Below, piece after piece: positions 25,043 through 30,505 of a DNA stretch of 35,272 nucleotides (within the stretch, counting starts at the first letter, position 1; every line of letters begins with the position of its first letter). The notes under the pieces were generated by a model. That model was not told the origin of the DNA. It saw only the letters and a list, made by a program, of their open reading frames with translations, and made no database searches. This DNA comes from Acidobacteriota bacterium. Lineage in GTDB: Bacteria; Acidobacteriota; Thermoanaerobaculia; UBA5066; Gp7-AA6. The translations under genes and the position numbers were made by a program. The DNA lies in the NCBI GenBank assembly GCA_003222385.1, contig QHVV01000007.1:1-35272 (forward strand). Reading direction: 5' to 3'.

Positions 25043-26590
25043 CTACGCCTCCGGAGGCGGGATGGCAGCCGGGTTGAACGTCGGAGGCGCCGGAGGCGTC
25101 CGCGGATGCCGCATCCGGCTGTGCCCATACCCATAGAGAAGATAGACGACGGCGCCGACCCCGAGCCACGCGACGAAACGCCACCAGGAAGAGGGCGGCA
25201 GGTAGTAGATCAAACCGAGCGACGAGAGGATCCCGAGCGCTGGCAGAAGGACCGGGCCGAACGGGACGCGGAACGGACGCTCCCGGTGCGGATCCTTGAA
25301 CCGCAGGATGGTGATCCCGATGCAGATCAGGATGAAGGCGAAGAGCGTCCCGATGTTCGTCAGGTTGACCATCTCGTCGAGCGTCGTGAACATGGCGGTG
25401 ACGCCGACGGCGACCCCCGTCAGGATCGTCGTCACGTGGGGCGTGCGAAAACGGGGATGCACGCGTGCGAAGACCGGCGGCAGAAGGCCGTCCCGCGCCA
25501 TCGCGAAGAAGATGCGCGGCTGGCCGAGCTGGAAGACGAGCAGCACCGCCGTGTGCGCGACCACCGAGCCGAACGCGACGACGCCCACCATCCAGTTGGG
25601 CATCGCGACGTACTTCATCGCGAGCGTGAGCGGCTCCGCCTGCTCGGTCGCCAGCGTCTGGCGCAGCGCCGCGTACGGAATCATGCCGGTGAACACGGCC
25701 GCGATCAGGATGTAGATGACGGTGCAGATGATGAGCGAGCCGATGATGCCGATCGGCATGTCCCGTTTCGGGTTGCGCGCCTCCTCGGCCGTGGTCGAGA
25801 CCGCGTCGAACCCGATGTAGGCGAAGAAGACGATCGCCGCGCCCGCGGCGATGCCGGAAAACCCGTTCGGCGCGAACGGAGTCCAGTTCACGGGCTTGAC
25901 GAAGTGGAAGCTGACGAAGACGAAGAACCCGAGCACGACGAGCTTGATCGCGACCATCCAGAAGTTGAACGACGCGGACTCGCGAATCCCCCAGACCAGC
26001 ACGACCGTGATCGCGGCGACGATCGCGAACGCGAGGATGTTGAGAACGATCGGAACTCCGAAGACGTGCGGCGCGGCGGCGACGACCTCCGGCATCTTGG
26101 AGTGCGCGGTGTGGTAATCGATGGTCAGCCAGCGCGGAAGGTGAATGCCCATGCCTTCGAGCAGCGTGTTGAAGTAGTTCGCCCACGAGATCGCGACCGC
26201 GACGTTTCCGATCGCATACTCCAGGATCAGGTCCCATCCGATGATCCAGGCGATCAGCTCCCCGAGCGTCGCGTACGAATACGTGTACGCCGAGCCCGCG
26301 ACCGGCACCATCGAAGCGAACTCCGCATAGCAGAGCGCGGTGAAGCCGCAGACGATCGCCGTCAGGACGAACGACAGCATCAGCGCGGGACCGGCGCCGG
26401 GGCGGGAGACGTCTCCGGCCGTCGCCGTCCCGATCGTCGCGAAGATGCCGGCTCCGATGATGGCCCCGATCCCGAGCGCGATCAGGTTCCCGGGGCCGAG
26501 CGCCTTTCGAAGCCGGTGCTCCGGCTCCTCGGTCTCGGCGACCATCTCGTCCAGCGACTTGGTCCGGAAGAGCCCTTCGGGAAAGCTCAA
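25043..26590 (-). CDS. APC superfamily amino-acid permease (CAT-like)
   Basis: Amino-acid transporter of 515 residues with about 12-14 membrane helices. The N-terminus FRTKSLDEMVAETEEPEHRL followed by KALGPGNLIALGIG and GAIIGAGIF at 42-50 is typical of the cationic amino acid transporter (CAT/YfnA) branch; GAIIGAGIF is the substrate-binding unwound part of helix 1. Other family marks are GFDAVSTTAEEARNPKRDMP and PFRVPFGP. The C-terminus is a Pro-rich cytoplasmic tail. TTG 26590 is chosen because it keeps the FRTKSLDE leader and overlaps the upstream HAD stop as TTGA, the same style as other junctions here. The specific amino acid is not readable. It is last in the minus-strand run beginning with tetR. 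Confidence 0.92.
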   Translation of the reverse strand: MSFPEGLFRTKSLDEMVAETEEPEHRLRKALGPGNLIALGIGAIIGAGIFATIGTATAGDVSRPGAGPALMLSFVLTAIVCGFTALCYAEFASMVPVAGSAYTYSYATLGELIAWIIGWDLILEYAIGNVAVAISWANYFNTLLEGMGIHLPRWLTIDYHTAHSKMPEVVAAAPHVFGVPIVLNILAFAIVAAITVVLVWGIRESASFNFWMVAIKLVVLGFFVFVSFHFVKPVNWTPFAPNGFSGIAAGAAIVFFAYIGFDAVSTTAEEARNPKRDMPIGIIGSLIICTVIYILIAAVFTGMIPYAALRQTLATEQAEPLTLAMKYVAMPNWMVGVVAFGSVVAHTAVLLVFQLGQPRIFFAMARDGLLPPVFARVHPRFRTPHVTTILTGVAVGVTAMFTTLDEMVNLTNIGTLFAFILICIGITILRFKDPHRERPFRVPFGPVLLPALGILSSLGLIYYLPPSSWWRFVAWLGVGAVVYLLYGYGHSRMRHPRTPPAPPTFNPAAIPPPEA

Positions 26591-27327
26591 CTTGACGGCA
26601 GGATAGCAAACGGCGTCGAGGAGGCTTCATCCAGCCGCTTCGGGATCTCTCCGAGCGAGACGATCCGGTCCGCGATCCCGGGGAAGGCATCCCGCCGGTC
26701 GAGCAGCAGCGCGGCCAGGCCGGCGGAGCGCGCTCCTTCGAAGTCTTCCGAAACGGAATCGCCCACGTGGAGCGATTCCACCGGGTCGACCTCGAGACGC
26801 CGGCAGGCGCGGTGGAAGATCTCCGGATCGGGCTTTCCGACTTCCTCGATCGACGAAACCGCGATGACCGGGAAGAACCGGTCGAGCTCGAGCGCCGCGA
26901 GCAACGTCGGCAGGTGCGAGTCCCAGTTCGAAACGACTGCCATCTTCAGGCCTCGTCGGGAGAGCTCCCCGAGCGTCGGTACGACGTCGTCGTAGATCGC
27001 CCAGGCGGCGGGACTCCGGAAATGGCTGGCGATGCGATCGAAGGCGGCGGCGGACAGAATCCCGCCGTCCAGGACCGAACGCACACGGGCGAGGAACTTC
27101 TTCCAGAACTCCGCCTCCCCGCGCACGCCGCCGTAGCGATCCGAAGCCGGCGTCGCGTGGACGTCCTCCCACGCCCTCGTCAAGGCGCGGGACAGGCCTT
27201 CCTCGGTGAACAGAGCGCCGTCCGCGGCCAACTCGCGCGAGTAGATCGCCTCGACCGGAGGATCCGGGTGGACGAGCGTCGCTCCCGCGTCGAAGAGGAC
27301 CGCGCGCAACGGCACGGCTCCCGCCAA
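26587..27327 (-). CDS. HAD superfamily hydrolase, subfamily IA
   Basis: A 246-residue HAD-like hydrolase. Motif I is AVLFDAGATLVHP with nucleophile Asp13; the second aspartate of the usual DxD is replaced (Asp-Ala-Gly). Motif II is AVVSNWDSHL (Ser133), motif III is Lys165 in VGKPDPEIF, and motif IV is HVGDSVSED (Asp190, Asp195). The cap domain lies between motifs I and II. DAG-type motif I occurs in a branch of subfamily IA, so activity may differ from classical phosphatases. The start is TTG 27327, three bases after the CADD-like gene stop, or GTG 27315; TTG has a better-spaced GGCGG. The stop overlaps the permease start (TTGA). The substrate is unknown; a link to folate metabolism through the neighbour is only a guess. 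Confidence 0.83.
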   Translation of the reverse strand: MAGAVPLRAVLFDAGATLVHPDPPVEAIYSRELAADGALFTEEGLSRALTRAWEDVHATPASDRYGGVRGEAEFWKKFLARVRSVLDGGILSAAAFDRIASHFRSPAAWAIYDDVVPTLGELSRRGLKMAVVSNWDSHLPTLLAALELDRFFPVIAVSSIEEVGKPDPEIFHRACRRLEVDPVESLHVGDSVSEDFEGARSAGLAALLLDRRDAFPGIADRIVSLGEIPKRLDEASSTPFAILPSS

Positions 27328-27330
27328 TCG

Positions 27331-28011
27331 TTACGCCGCCAGCCCGTTCTCGCGCATCACTCCGTCGAGGACCCGATTCAGCGAGTCGAGACAGCGTTCC
27401 GCGGCCGCGAGAGCATTCTTCTGCTCGTCCGGGGTCGTTGCCACCCGCCCAAGGGCCTCGCGCTCGGCCTGGCGGTGCCAGACGTCGGCCTCTTCGTGGA
27501 CCGTGAAGAACTCGACCGCGCCGGGGTCCTCGATTCCATAGAACGCGGCGAGGCCTTCGCGTTTGGTGCGGGAGATTTCCGGGATCTGCGATTCGTACGC
27601 GTAGAGCGCCGCCAGCCCTTCCGCGACCGAGTCGCCGCGCGTCGCGCGCCGGAATTCGGCGATCGCGCCAGCGACCTCGGGGGTGCGGGGTCGCGTCGAG
27701 AGATCCGTCTCGGAGGCGCCGAGGGCCGCCGCGAAACGACGCCAGAGAGCCGGATGGTTGGCGGGACCTCTCTCTTCCTCCACAAGGTTCTCGAGCAGCA
27801 TCCGGCGGACCGTCGGGTCGTCGCATCCCGAGTGAACTCCTGAGACGTACGTCGGGAACGCCGCGACGTGCGGGTAGTACGAGATCGCGTACTCGCGGAT
27901 GTGATCGCGGGTCAGCTTCCCTTCGCTCCACAGGCAGTAGAAGGGATGTTTCAAGAGGTGCTTCTCCGCCACCAGAGCGTCCAGAGTTTCCAGAAACTGC
28001 TCGGAAGTCAT
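27331..28011 (-). CDS. CADD-type p-aminobenzoate synthase (self-sacrificing dimetal oxygenase)
   Basis: A 226-residue TenA/PqqC-fold protein that matches Chlamydia CADD along its length. CADD makes p-aminobenzoate for folate from its own tyrosine in an oxygen- and dimetal-dependent reaction. From memory of the CADD sequence, every key residue is present two positions earlier: Tyr25 for Tyr27 in HPFYCLW, Lys150 for Lys152 in EISRTKREG, and metal ligands Glu79, His86, Glu140, His172, Asp176 and His179 for CADD Glu81, His88, Glu142, His174, Asp178 and His181. Conserved blocks include VHSGCDD, ALYAYESQIP and VHEEADVWH. ATG 28011 has AGGAG shortly upstream. The gene precedes the HAD gene by three bases and follows the SDR gene after a short repeat. 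It suggests a PabABC-independent p-aminobenzoate route here. Confidence 0.88.
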   Translation of the reverse strand: MTSEQFLETLDALVAEKHLLKHPFYCLWSEGKLTRDHIREYAISYYPHVAAFPTYVSGVHSGCDDPTVRRMLLENLVEEERGPANHPALWRRFAAALGASETDLSTRPRTPEVAGAIAEFRRATRGDSVAEGLAALYAYESQIPEISRTKREGLAAFYGIEDPGAVEFFTVHEEADVWHRQAEREALGRVATTPDEQKNALAAAERCLDSLNRVLDGVMRENGLAA

Positions 28012-28026: not shown

Positions 28027-28057
28027 CGATTTCCGATTTCCGATTTCCGATTTCCGA
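28027..28057. repeat. Heptamer tandem repeat (cgatttc, four copies plus cga)
   Basis: Four exact tandem copies of cgatttc at 28027-28054 followed by cga. It fills most of the 47-base gap between the SDR stop and the CADD-like start, and is much richer in A/T than its surroundings. On the transcript strand it reads as repeated GGAAATC upstream of the CADD-like ribosome-binding site. Confidence 0.9.
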
Positions 28058-28058
28058 A

Positions 28059-28841
28059 CTATGGCATGACCTGCCCGCCGTCCAGAACGATCGCCTGGCC
28101 CGTGATCGAGCGCGCGTCGTCAGAAGCGAGATAGGCGGCGAGGCCCGCGACTTCTTCGGGCTCGATGATCCTGCCGAGCGGCGCCATTTTCGCGGCCATT
28201 TCGCGCCCCTCTTTCTCGCCTGCGCCGTGATGCTCCCCCACTCCCCGCCAGCCGGAGCGCCCCATGTCCGTCTCGACCCACCCCGGGCACATGGCGTTGA
28301 CGGTGATCCCGCGCGGCGCGAGCTCCAGCGCGAAGGTACGGGTCAGGCCGATGACGCCGTGCTTGGTGGCGGAGTACGCGCCCAGGCCGGCGACGCCGAA
28401 GCGGCCCACGACCGACGACAGGTTGATGATCCGCGCGCCGTCGGAGAGGTGGGGAAGGGCCTCGCGCGTCACGCGGAAGACGGCCGTCAGGTTCGTCGCC
28501 AGGATGGCGTCCCAGCGCGAGTCGTCGCGGTCCGAGAGCGGCGTCGGGCCGCCCCGGCCCGCGTTGTTGACGAGGACGTCGATCCGGCCCCACTTCGTAA
28601 CGACCGCCGAGATCATTCGCGCGACCGCCGGGGCGTCGGTCACGTCCGCGTCGATGGCGATCGCTTCTCCGCCGGCCGCGCCGATCTCGCGCGCGATCGA
28701 CCGGCAACGCTCCACGCTGCGAGCGGCGAGCGCGACGCGGGCGCCCTCCTGCCCGAATCGCCGGGAGATCGCTTCGCCGATCCCGCGCGAAGCGCCGGTG
28801 ACGAGGGCCACCCTCCCCTCGAGCCGGCGGGCTTCGGGCAC
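28059..28841 (-). CDS. Short-chain dehydrogenase/reductase (FabG-like SDR)
   Basis: A 260-residue classical SDR oxidoreductase using NAD(P)H. The nucleotide-binding motif is TGASRGIG at 15-22, NNAG at 92-95 stabilises the fold, and the catalytic set is Ser142/Ser143, Tyr156 and Lys160 in YSATK. The C-terminus ends with SITGQAIVLDGGQVMP, as in FabG and 3-hydroxyacyl dehydrogenase relatives. Arg18 and Arg41 (AARSVE) suggest NADP preference, as an inference. GTG 28841 places the Rossmann start at the usual distance. It lies 15 bases after ispH in the same direction. The substrate cannot be named; 3-oxoacyl or 3-hydroxyacyl compounds are common for this type. Confidence 0.9.
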   Translation of the reverse strand: MPEARRLEGRVALVTGASRGIGEAISRRFGQEGARVALAARSVERCRSIAREIGAAGGEAIAIDADVTDAPAVARMISAVVTKWGRIDVLVNNAGRGGPTPLSDRDDSRWDAILATNLTAVFRVTREALPHLSDGARIINLSSVVGRFGVAGLGAYSATKHGVIGLTRTFALELAPRGITVNAMCPGWVETDMGRSGWRGVGEHHGAGEKEGREMAAKMAPLGRIIEPEEVAGLAAYLASDDARSITGQAIVLDGGQVMP

Positions 28842-28856
28842 GACGTCCGGTCTCTT

Positions 28857-29825
28857 CTAGGCGGGAATGCTCGGAAGCGCCGGCCTGCCGCGCTCGGCGC
28901 GGGTGCGGGCGAGCTCGGCGGGAAGGGGAAAGTGGACGTCTTCCTCGATCGAGACGAGGTCTTCCACTTCCCGCGCGCCGAGCGACTTCAGCTTCGCGAC
29001 GATCTCGTCGACCAGGAACTCCGGCGCCGACGCCCCGGAGGTCACGCCCACGGTTTCCGCTCCGGCGAGCCAGGCCGGGTCGACTCCCGACGCGTCGTCG
29101 ACGAGATACGCCTTCGCTCCCGCGAGGAGGGCTTCTTCGACGAGCCGGTTCGAGTTGGAGGAGTTCTTCGAGCCGATCACCAGAATGACCGGCGCCCGCC
29201 GCGCGAGCGCGCGGACGGCGAGCTGTCGGTTCTGCGTCGCATAGCAGATGTCGTCCTTCGCGGGACCTTCGATCTTCGGGAACCGCCGTTTCAGCGTCTC
29301 GACGATCGGCCGCGTGTCTTCCATCGAAAGCGTCGTCTGGGTGATATACGCGACCCGGTCGGGATCCGGGACCGAAATCGCTTCCGCTTCCGCGACCGAA
29401 GAAACGAGCGCGATCCTCGCTGGCGCCTCCCCCATCGTGCCCTCGACCTCGTCGTGTCCGGGGTGGCCGATCAGGACGATCGAATACCCGAGGCGCGCGA
29501 ACCGGACCGCCTCGAGATGGACCTTGGTCACGAGCGGGCACGTCGCGTCGATGACGGTCAACCCGCGGCGCGCCGCCTCTTCCCGGACACGCGGAGCGAT
29601 GCCGTGCGCCGAAAAGATCACGGTCGCGCCGTCGGGCACGGAATCGAGCTCGTCGACGAACCGGACCCCTCGCGCCTCGAACCCGCGCACGACGTGAAGG
29701 TTGTGGACGATCTCCCTGCGCACGTAGAGGGGCGGAGCGACGCATTCGAGCGCCAGGTCCACGACGTCGATCGCCCGCACGACTCCGGCGCAGAAACCGC
29801 GCGGGGCGGCCAACAGGATCCTCAT
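28857..29825 (-). CDS. ispH: 4-hydroxy-3-methylbut-2-enyl diphosphate reductase (IspH)
   Basis: Last enzyme of the MEP isoprenoid pathway, reducing HMBPP to IPP and DMAPP with a [4Fe-4S] cluster. 322 residues. The three cluster cysteines are Cys12 (GFCAGV), Cys96 (ATCP) and Cys194 (ICYAT). Substrate-site residues His41, His74, His124 and Glu126 fall at the same numbers as in the E. coli enzyme, and SKNSSNSNRL is the usual Ser/Asn substrate loop. An extension of about 20 residues at the C-terminus is Arg/Pro-rich. ATG 29825 overlaps the tetR stop (ATGA), so ispH is probably translated with tetR. A strong hairpin lies just upstream, in the end of tetR. It supplies precursors for the polyprenyl carriers used by the glycan locus. 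Confidence 0.96.
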   Translation of the reverse strand: MRILLAAPRGFCAGVVRAIDVVDLALECVAPPLYVRREIVHNLHVVRGFEARGVRFVDELDSVPDGATVIFSAHGIAPRVREEAARRGLTVIDATCPLVTKVHLEAVRFARLGYSIVLIGHPGHDEVEGTMGEAPARIALVSSVAEAEAISVPDPDRVAYITQTTLSMEDTRPIVETLKRRFPKIEGPAKDDICYATQNRQLAVRALARRAPVILVIGSKNSSNSNRLVEEALLAGAKAYLVDDASGVDPAWLAGAETVGVTSGASAPEFLVDEIVAKLKSLGAREVEDLVSIEEDVHFPLPAELARTRAERGRPALPSIPA

Positions 29826-30505
29826 GGCGCCGCGGATTGTATGGGGTCTGATCCCCGAAGGGGGTCAGATCCCTCCCGTCTTGATTTCGTCGCGCGGTCC
29901 GATCCCGCCTCCAAATATCGCAGCAGCTCGCGCTCGCACCTCTCCCGGTACGCGGAAAAGGTGACCTCCGGATCGGTTTCCGCGAGCCACTGCATCATGA
30001 GCCCGTCGAAGATCGCCCGGACGGTCGACGCCGCGGAGGCCGGGTCGCGGACTCCGAAGACGCCGCGGCGGATGCCGTCCTCGACGATCGCGCCGTCGAT
30101 CTCGCGGCAGCCTTCGTAGAAGCGAGCGGTGACCTCGCGGAAACTCTCGCGCCGCGCCGCGAGACCGCAGAAGTCGACGAACGCCCGGAAGAAGGCGCGG
30201 TTTTTCGACGGCGAAGGAAACGTGATCGCGACGAGCGCCTGCAGCTTTTCGACCGGGTCGGCGGGCGTCTCCACCGCCTCGCGCATGCGCGCGTGGATCG
30301 AATCGACGAGCCACCCGAAAAGGCGTCGGAAGAGATCTTCCTTCGACGCGAAGTAGTAGAGCGTCACGCCCTTGGAAACCCCCGCCCTCCGCGCGATGTC
30401 GTCGAGCGTGACCTCCGCGAAGCCCTTTTCGGCGACCTCGCGGAACGCGGCTTTGAAGAGCGCCAGCCGCCGCTGACCTTCGCGCTCGGGATCCCGGCCG
30501 TTCAT
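29822..30505 (-). CDS. TetR family transcriptional regulator
   Basis: A 227-residue TetR-type repressor. The N-terminal helix-turn-helix is at about 32-56 (VTLDDIARRAGVSKGVTLYY followed by FASKEDLF). The ligand domain includes FFRAFVDFCGLAARRESFRE and DGLMMQWLAETDPEVTFSAY, resembling BetI/AcrR-like C-terminal domains; the ligand is unknown. The last 20 residues, containing GSDPLRGSDPIQSAAP, come from the hairpin repeat and look like an added tail. ATG 30505 lies 15 bases from a perfect palindrome (30521-30536), the likely operator for autoregulation and for the divergent moaD operon. It heads the run tetR, ispH, SDR, CADD, HAD, permease. Confidence 0.92.
   Translation of the reverse strand: MNGRDPEREGQRRLALFKAAFREVAEKGFAEVTLDDIARRAGVSKGVTLYYFASKEDLFRRLFGWLVDSIHARMREAVETPADPVEKLQALVAITFPSPSKNRAFFRAFVDFCGLAARRESFREVTARFYEGCREIDGAIVEDGIRRGVFGVRDPASAASTVRAIFDGLMMQWLAETDPEVTFSAYRERCERELLRYLEAGSDRATKSRREGSDPLRGSDPIQSAAP
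29843..29873. repeat. Strong hairpin at the tetR 3' end, upstream of ispH
   Basis: Fourteen-base arms (29843-29856 and 29860-29873) around the triloop gaa pair fully if two G-T wobbles are allowed; the arms contain ggtctgatcccc and ggggtcagatcc. The hairpin sits 18 bases before ispH ATG on the minus strand and encodes the GSDPLRGSDP tail of TetR. It could be a mobile palindromic repeat or a control structure. Confidence 0.8.

Follow-up and report, generated by a model that had tools for sequence, protein, structure and literature searches.

Two enzymes that make p-aminobenzoate (PABA) at the expense of their own side chains frame the comparison made here. CADD (CT610) of Chlamydia trachomatis, for which a link to folate was proposed in 2007 (PMC1971073), has a Tyr/Tyr pair at its metal-selecting positions and is an Mn/Fe enzyme; NePabS (NE1434) of Nitrosomonas europaea has a Phe/Phe pair and is an Fe/Fe enzyme (PMC11965152). 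In NePabS, Tyr25, Tyr41, and Lys159 are essential and Tyr45 and Trp99 help activity, while the F148Y mutant, which carries a Tyr/Phe pair, is about equally active with Fe/Fe or Mn/Fe (PMC11965152). Earlier work had already noted CADD-like proteins in Wolbachia, Rickettsia, Chloroflexi, and Sphingomonas (PMC11965152). A partial literature search returned no paper that brings together Acidobacteria, CADD, and PABA.

Here, we describe a gene of this type in a 35,272-nucleotide stretch of an acidobacterial contig, called the window below. Judged from its sequence and a structural model, the gene almost certainly encodes a heme-oxygenase-like dimetal oxygenase (HDO) of the rare CADD/PabS type that consumes itself to form PABA. 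We consider it highly probable that PABA is made from the protein's own side chains, most likely in place of the PabA-PabB-PabC route, and that it feeds the dihydropteroate synthase (DHPS) of the same genome. The reaction that forms PABA, the metal used, and the role of CADD in supplying the cell with PABA are inferred.

An acidobacterial member of the CADD family

The open reading frame lies on the minus strand and is read from 28011 down to 27331, beginning with an ATG that has a GGAG motif on its 5' side and ending with a stop codon (Table 1). A plus-strand gene at the same position was ruled out because the frame is interrupted. The protein scored 270.6 bits (E value, 8e-81) against the CADD family model TIGR04305, whose cut-off is 200, and showed no differences from this family, which is named "CADD family putative folate metabolism protein" in NCBIfam. 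A sequence search of the PDB matched 9pj4 (5e-57), 1rcw (6e-55), and 8va9 (9e-55); 9pj4 is another solved 4-aminobenzoate synthase, and 1rcw and 8va9 are CADD. Identity is 41.5% to Chlamydia CADD and 45.3% to 9pj4, the sequence of which resembles NePabS peptides. Against NePabS, the window protein lacks an extra loop of ~10 residues, seen as a 9-residue gap in the alignment with 9pj4.

An earlier note on this DNA, which gave no strand, had recognized a CADD-type synthase with every catalytic residue, an assignment that the family model, the PDB matches, and the residue alignment bear out. It had also placed the gene outside the known chlamydial and nitrifier examples, and this novelty did not survive: in addition to the bacteria listed in PMC11965152, relatives were found across many phyla. 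Since the family is already described and named at NCBI, the gene is a well-supported further member rather than a new system.

Table 1 Features of the CADD locus in the window
Feature	Position	Strand	Basis
TetR-family regulator, head of same-strand run	29822..30505	-	
ispH (4-hydroxy-3-methylbut-2-enyl diphosphate reductase)	28857..29825	-	
SDR oxidoreductase (FabG-like), upstream, 47-bp gap	28059..28841	-	
CADD/PabS-type self-sacrificing p-aminobenzoate synthase (predicted), 226 aa	27331..28011	-	TIGR04305, PDB, mapped sites, AlphaFold model
Codon for the predicted sacrificial residue Tyr25 (Tyr27 in CADD, Tyr25 in NePabS)	27937..27939	-	alignment; role, PMC11965152
Codon of Tyr139, metal-selectivity position (CADD Tyr141, NePabS Phe148)	27595..27597	-	alignment
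Codon for the predicted amino-donor residue Lys150 (Lys152 in CADD, Lys159 in NePabS)	27562..27564	-	alignment; role, PMC11965152
Codon of Phe168, metal-selectivity position (CADD Tyr170, NePabS Phe177)	27508..27510	-	alignment
HAD-family hydrolase, 3 bp downstream of CADD stop	26587..27327	-	
Amino-acid permease (APC type), 4-bp overlap with HAD gene	25043..26590	-	

Catalytic residues and proposed mechanism

Alignment to CADD mapped all 13 functional sites. The sacrificial pair (Y27 and K152 in CADD) corresponds to Y25 and K150, and the metal ligands E81, H88, E142, H174, D178, and H181 correspond to E79, H86, E140, H172, D176, and H179, so that the three histidines and three carboxylates of a dimetal site are all present. 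The shift of two residues that the earlier note had seen at the Tyr, the Lys, and the six ligands is exact and extends to the aromatic residues Y41, Y45, and W90 (Y43, Y47, and W92 in CADD); on this alignment, chance is excluded as the source of the constant offset. The protein also shares with CADD the tyrosine at position 141 of the latter and, with NePabS, the amino-donor lysine and the phenylalanine at position 177; the NePabS residues that are essential or help activity all have counterparts.

By analogy with CADD and NePabS, the dimetal site would activate O2, and an oxidizing equivalent would reach Tyr25 by way of aromatic side chains, for example those of Tyr45, Trp90, and Tyr139. The Tyr25 side chain would then be cleaved off, leaving glycine, and the released ring would be oxidized to a carboxylate with oxygens from O2 and aminated with Lys150 as the donor. 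Each protein molecule would turn over once, and the PABA would pass to the DHPS encoded in the genome.

PABA and folate genes of the host genome

The genome that contains the window (G000; 3.6 Mb in 231 contigs, 95.3% complete) is of free-living-type size, which sets the gene apart from chlamydial CADD. We searched it for CADD, folP, pabB/trpE, and class-IV aminotransferases. CADD is present in one copy, and DHPS scored 285.8 bits (cut-off, 162.6). The sole chorismate-binding protein (PF00425) is TrpE: it exceeds the cut-off of the TrpE model (533.2 versus 517.7), stays under that of the PabB model TIGR00553 (298.9 bits versus 328.4), and lies in the gene order aroE-trpE-trpG. No PabB was found by profile search in the assembled genome. 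Two of the three class-IV aminotransferases are IlvE-like and one is D-amino-acid transaminase-like, in each case a better fit than PabC. The genome thus combines a PABA consumer with no detectable PabB, and the absence of a complete pabABC set from the assembly agrees with the alternative folate route that had been suggested.

Distribution of CADD and PabB in the order and class

Of 19 genomes of the order, the three from the window's family all carry CADD, which does not occur in the other 16. PabB was detected in none of the three CADD-bearing members, versus 10 of the 12 other genomes that are at least 90% complete; the contrast gives a Fisher value of 0.02 among related genomes with shared descent uncorrected, and because PabB absence follows family lines, these counts are not independent events. 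In the class, CADD exceeds its cut-off in 14 of 149 genomes, and PabB was detected in 0 of these 14. Where the CADD-positive genomes have a second chorismate enzyme, it reached 39 to 111 bits on the PabB model, on which PabB proteins of the order score 278 bits or more; isochorismate synthase was the top fit for the two examples scanned. We dropped the class-wide count as strong proof, as CADD-less genomes often lack PabB too.

Many near-complete genomes of the class, including G026, G032, G118, G124, G125, G127, G139, and G140, encode DHPS and gave no match to PabB or CADD. The bacteria in question may be auxotrophic for PABA or obtain it by another route.

Because many class genomes have this combination, a missing PabB alone is no proof that CADD is the source. 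The draft state of the assembly and the distance of the CADD gene from any folate gene also count against this reading. The protein could have the CADD fold and residues and still not be the main source of PABA, which would come from import of PABA or a folate precursor or from a route shared with the CADD-less, PabB-less relatives; the near-complete genomes of this kind imply that another supply exists. We regard this as unlikely here, given that all self-sacrifice residues are kept, that three genera of the family retain the CADD gene at the same place, and that the relatives lacking both genes come mostly from outside the order. Still less probable is that TrpE and TrpG double as aminodeoxychorismate synthase and a class-IV aminotransferase serves as PabC, so that the canonical route runs beside or instead of CADD. 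The high score of TrpE on PabB models and the three aminotransferases would fit such an arrangement, but TrpE exceeds only the anthranilate synthase cut-off, with their own profile the PabB proteins of the order score 565 to 662, with lower values for fragments, against 288 at most for TrpE, and the aminotransferases resemble other enzymes more than PabC. The reading of CADD as the PABA source is the one that we retain, and it lends genome-level support to a self-sacrificing PABA route that would serve free-living acidobacteria and other environmental phyla, beyond a parasite's shortcut.

In a quick phylogenetic tree, the three CADD proteins of the family form one group (99% support) that is separate from the CADD proteins of the remaining acidobacterial families. 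A single CADD origin within the class was rejected by the AU test (P = 7e-5; quick tree), suggesting that CADD was probably gained more than once in the class; grouping the window's family with the f4/f5 group was not rejected (P = 0.32; quick tree).

Predicted fold

An AlphaFold model built with 25 aligned relatives has a mean pLDDT of 96.4. Its four top PDB matches are CtCADD chains, with a TM score of 0.94 to 0.95 (target normalized) and an rmsd of 1.5 to 1.7; the predicted fold is a heme-oxygenase-like helical bundle, nearest to CtCADD. That the protein catalyzes a different HDO reaction with an external substrate, in the manner of PqqC, UndA, or BesC, is the most improbable alternative of all: it shares the fold and PF14518/PF03070 with these proteins and TenA, but identity is ~20%, scores are far under the model cut-offs (PqqC, 46.8 versus 240 bits; BesC, 32.7 versus 500 bits), Foldseek gave 1.9e-16 for CtCADD versus 1e-8 or weaker for PqqC, UndA, and BesC, and the sacrificial Tyr and the Lys are kept in 24 and 25, respectively, of the 25 aligned relatives.

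Two kinds of departure were seen among the homologs. In a deltaproteobacterial CADD relative (L070:8001-8663), His replaces the sacrificial Tyr (HPFHQAW), and the Lys, the ligands, and the other aromatic residues are intact. L124 (G028) and L128 (G033) are divergent HDO proteins with metal ligands and without the sacrificial Tyr and Lys.

Metal-selecting positions

The window protein carries Tyr139 and Phe168 at the two positions that select the metal. It differs from CADD at the second and from NePabS at the first, where it matches the F148Y mutant, so this natural variant is distinct from both assayed enzymes found in the literature. By analogy with that mutant, the pair suggests an enzyme able to use Fe/Fe or Mn/Fe. 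Among the collected sequences, Tyr/Phe occurred in 56 rows (the window included), Tyr/Tyr in 28 to 29, and Phe/Phe in 1, shares that are biased because peptides from the window protein, including one that begins with the Tyr of this pair, served to seed the collection. Since the equivalent NePabS mutant takes either metal pair, a Tyr/Phe subtype would be metal flexible. Tentatively, and with the balance of probability somewhat against it, Tyr/Phe could be a widespread natural subtype, a third and metal-flexible class of PABA synthase, that replaced PabABC in this acidobacterial family and separately elsewhere in the class.

Gene neighborhood

The CADD gene is the fourth in a minus-strand run of TetR, ispH, SDR, CADD, HAD, and permease genes, with intergenic distances of -4, 15, 47, 3, and -4 bp; the SDR and HAD genes are probably cotranscribed with CADD. 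The order from TetR to HAD is kept in both other members of the family, with 69 to 75% identity for the CADD proteins, and was absent from every other lineage examined. The permease gene adjoins in one of the two other members and lies ~2 kb further off in the relative G003. The HAD, SDR, permease, and ispH products had no match to folate families. We therefore rejected the operon partners as folate enzymes, as they match no folate family and synteny ends at the family border, and on present evidence the SDR is not a functional partner of CADD. The SDR, HAD, and permease neighbors that the earlier note had brought into its folate argument are real and on the same strand, but they are conserved within the family only and have no bearing on folate; we take the neighborhood to be ordinary inherited gene order.

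With ispH, SDR, HAD, and permease genes around it, the window CADD lies outside a folate gene cluster, as does NePabS and unlike CADD of Chlamydia. Judged from the sequences, folate-type neighbors were seen only at the Chlamydia locus (L038) among the CADD loci compared. Conserved neighbors in other phyla include a class-II amidotransferase-like gene, an NADH-dehydrogenase-type subunit, TPR proteins, peptidases, and redoxins; they were set aside as a clue to folate because they are not of folate type.

In 28 loci, a class-II glutamine-amidotransferase-like gene lies directly 3' of CADD on the same strand; these loci are of the Kapaibacteria/Ignavibacteria type, such as L004 to L009 (L005:8799-9764). 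In the window, a scan for promoters and terminators found nothing exceeding chance. Between the SDR and CADD genes, at 28028-28056, the 7-base repeat GATTTCC occurs in four tandem copies, where none is expected by chance.
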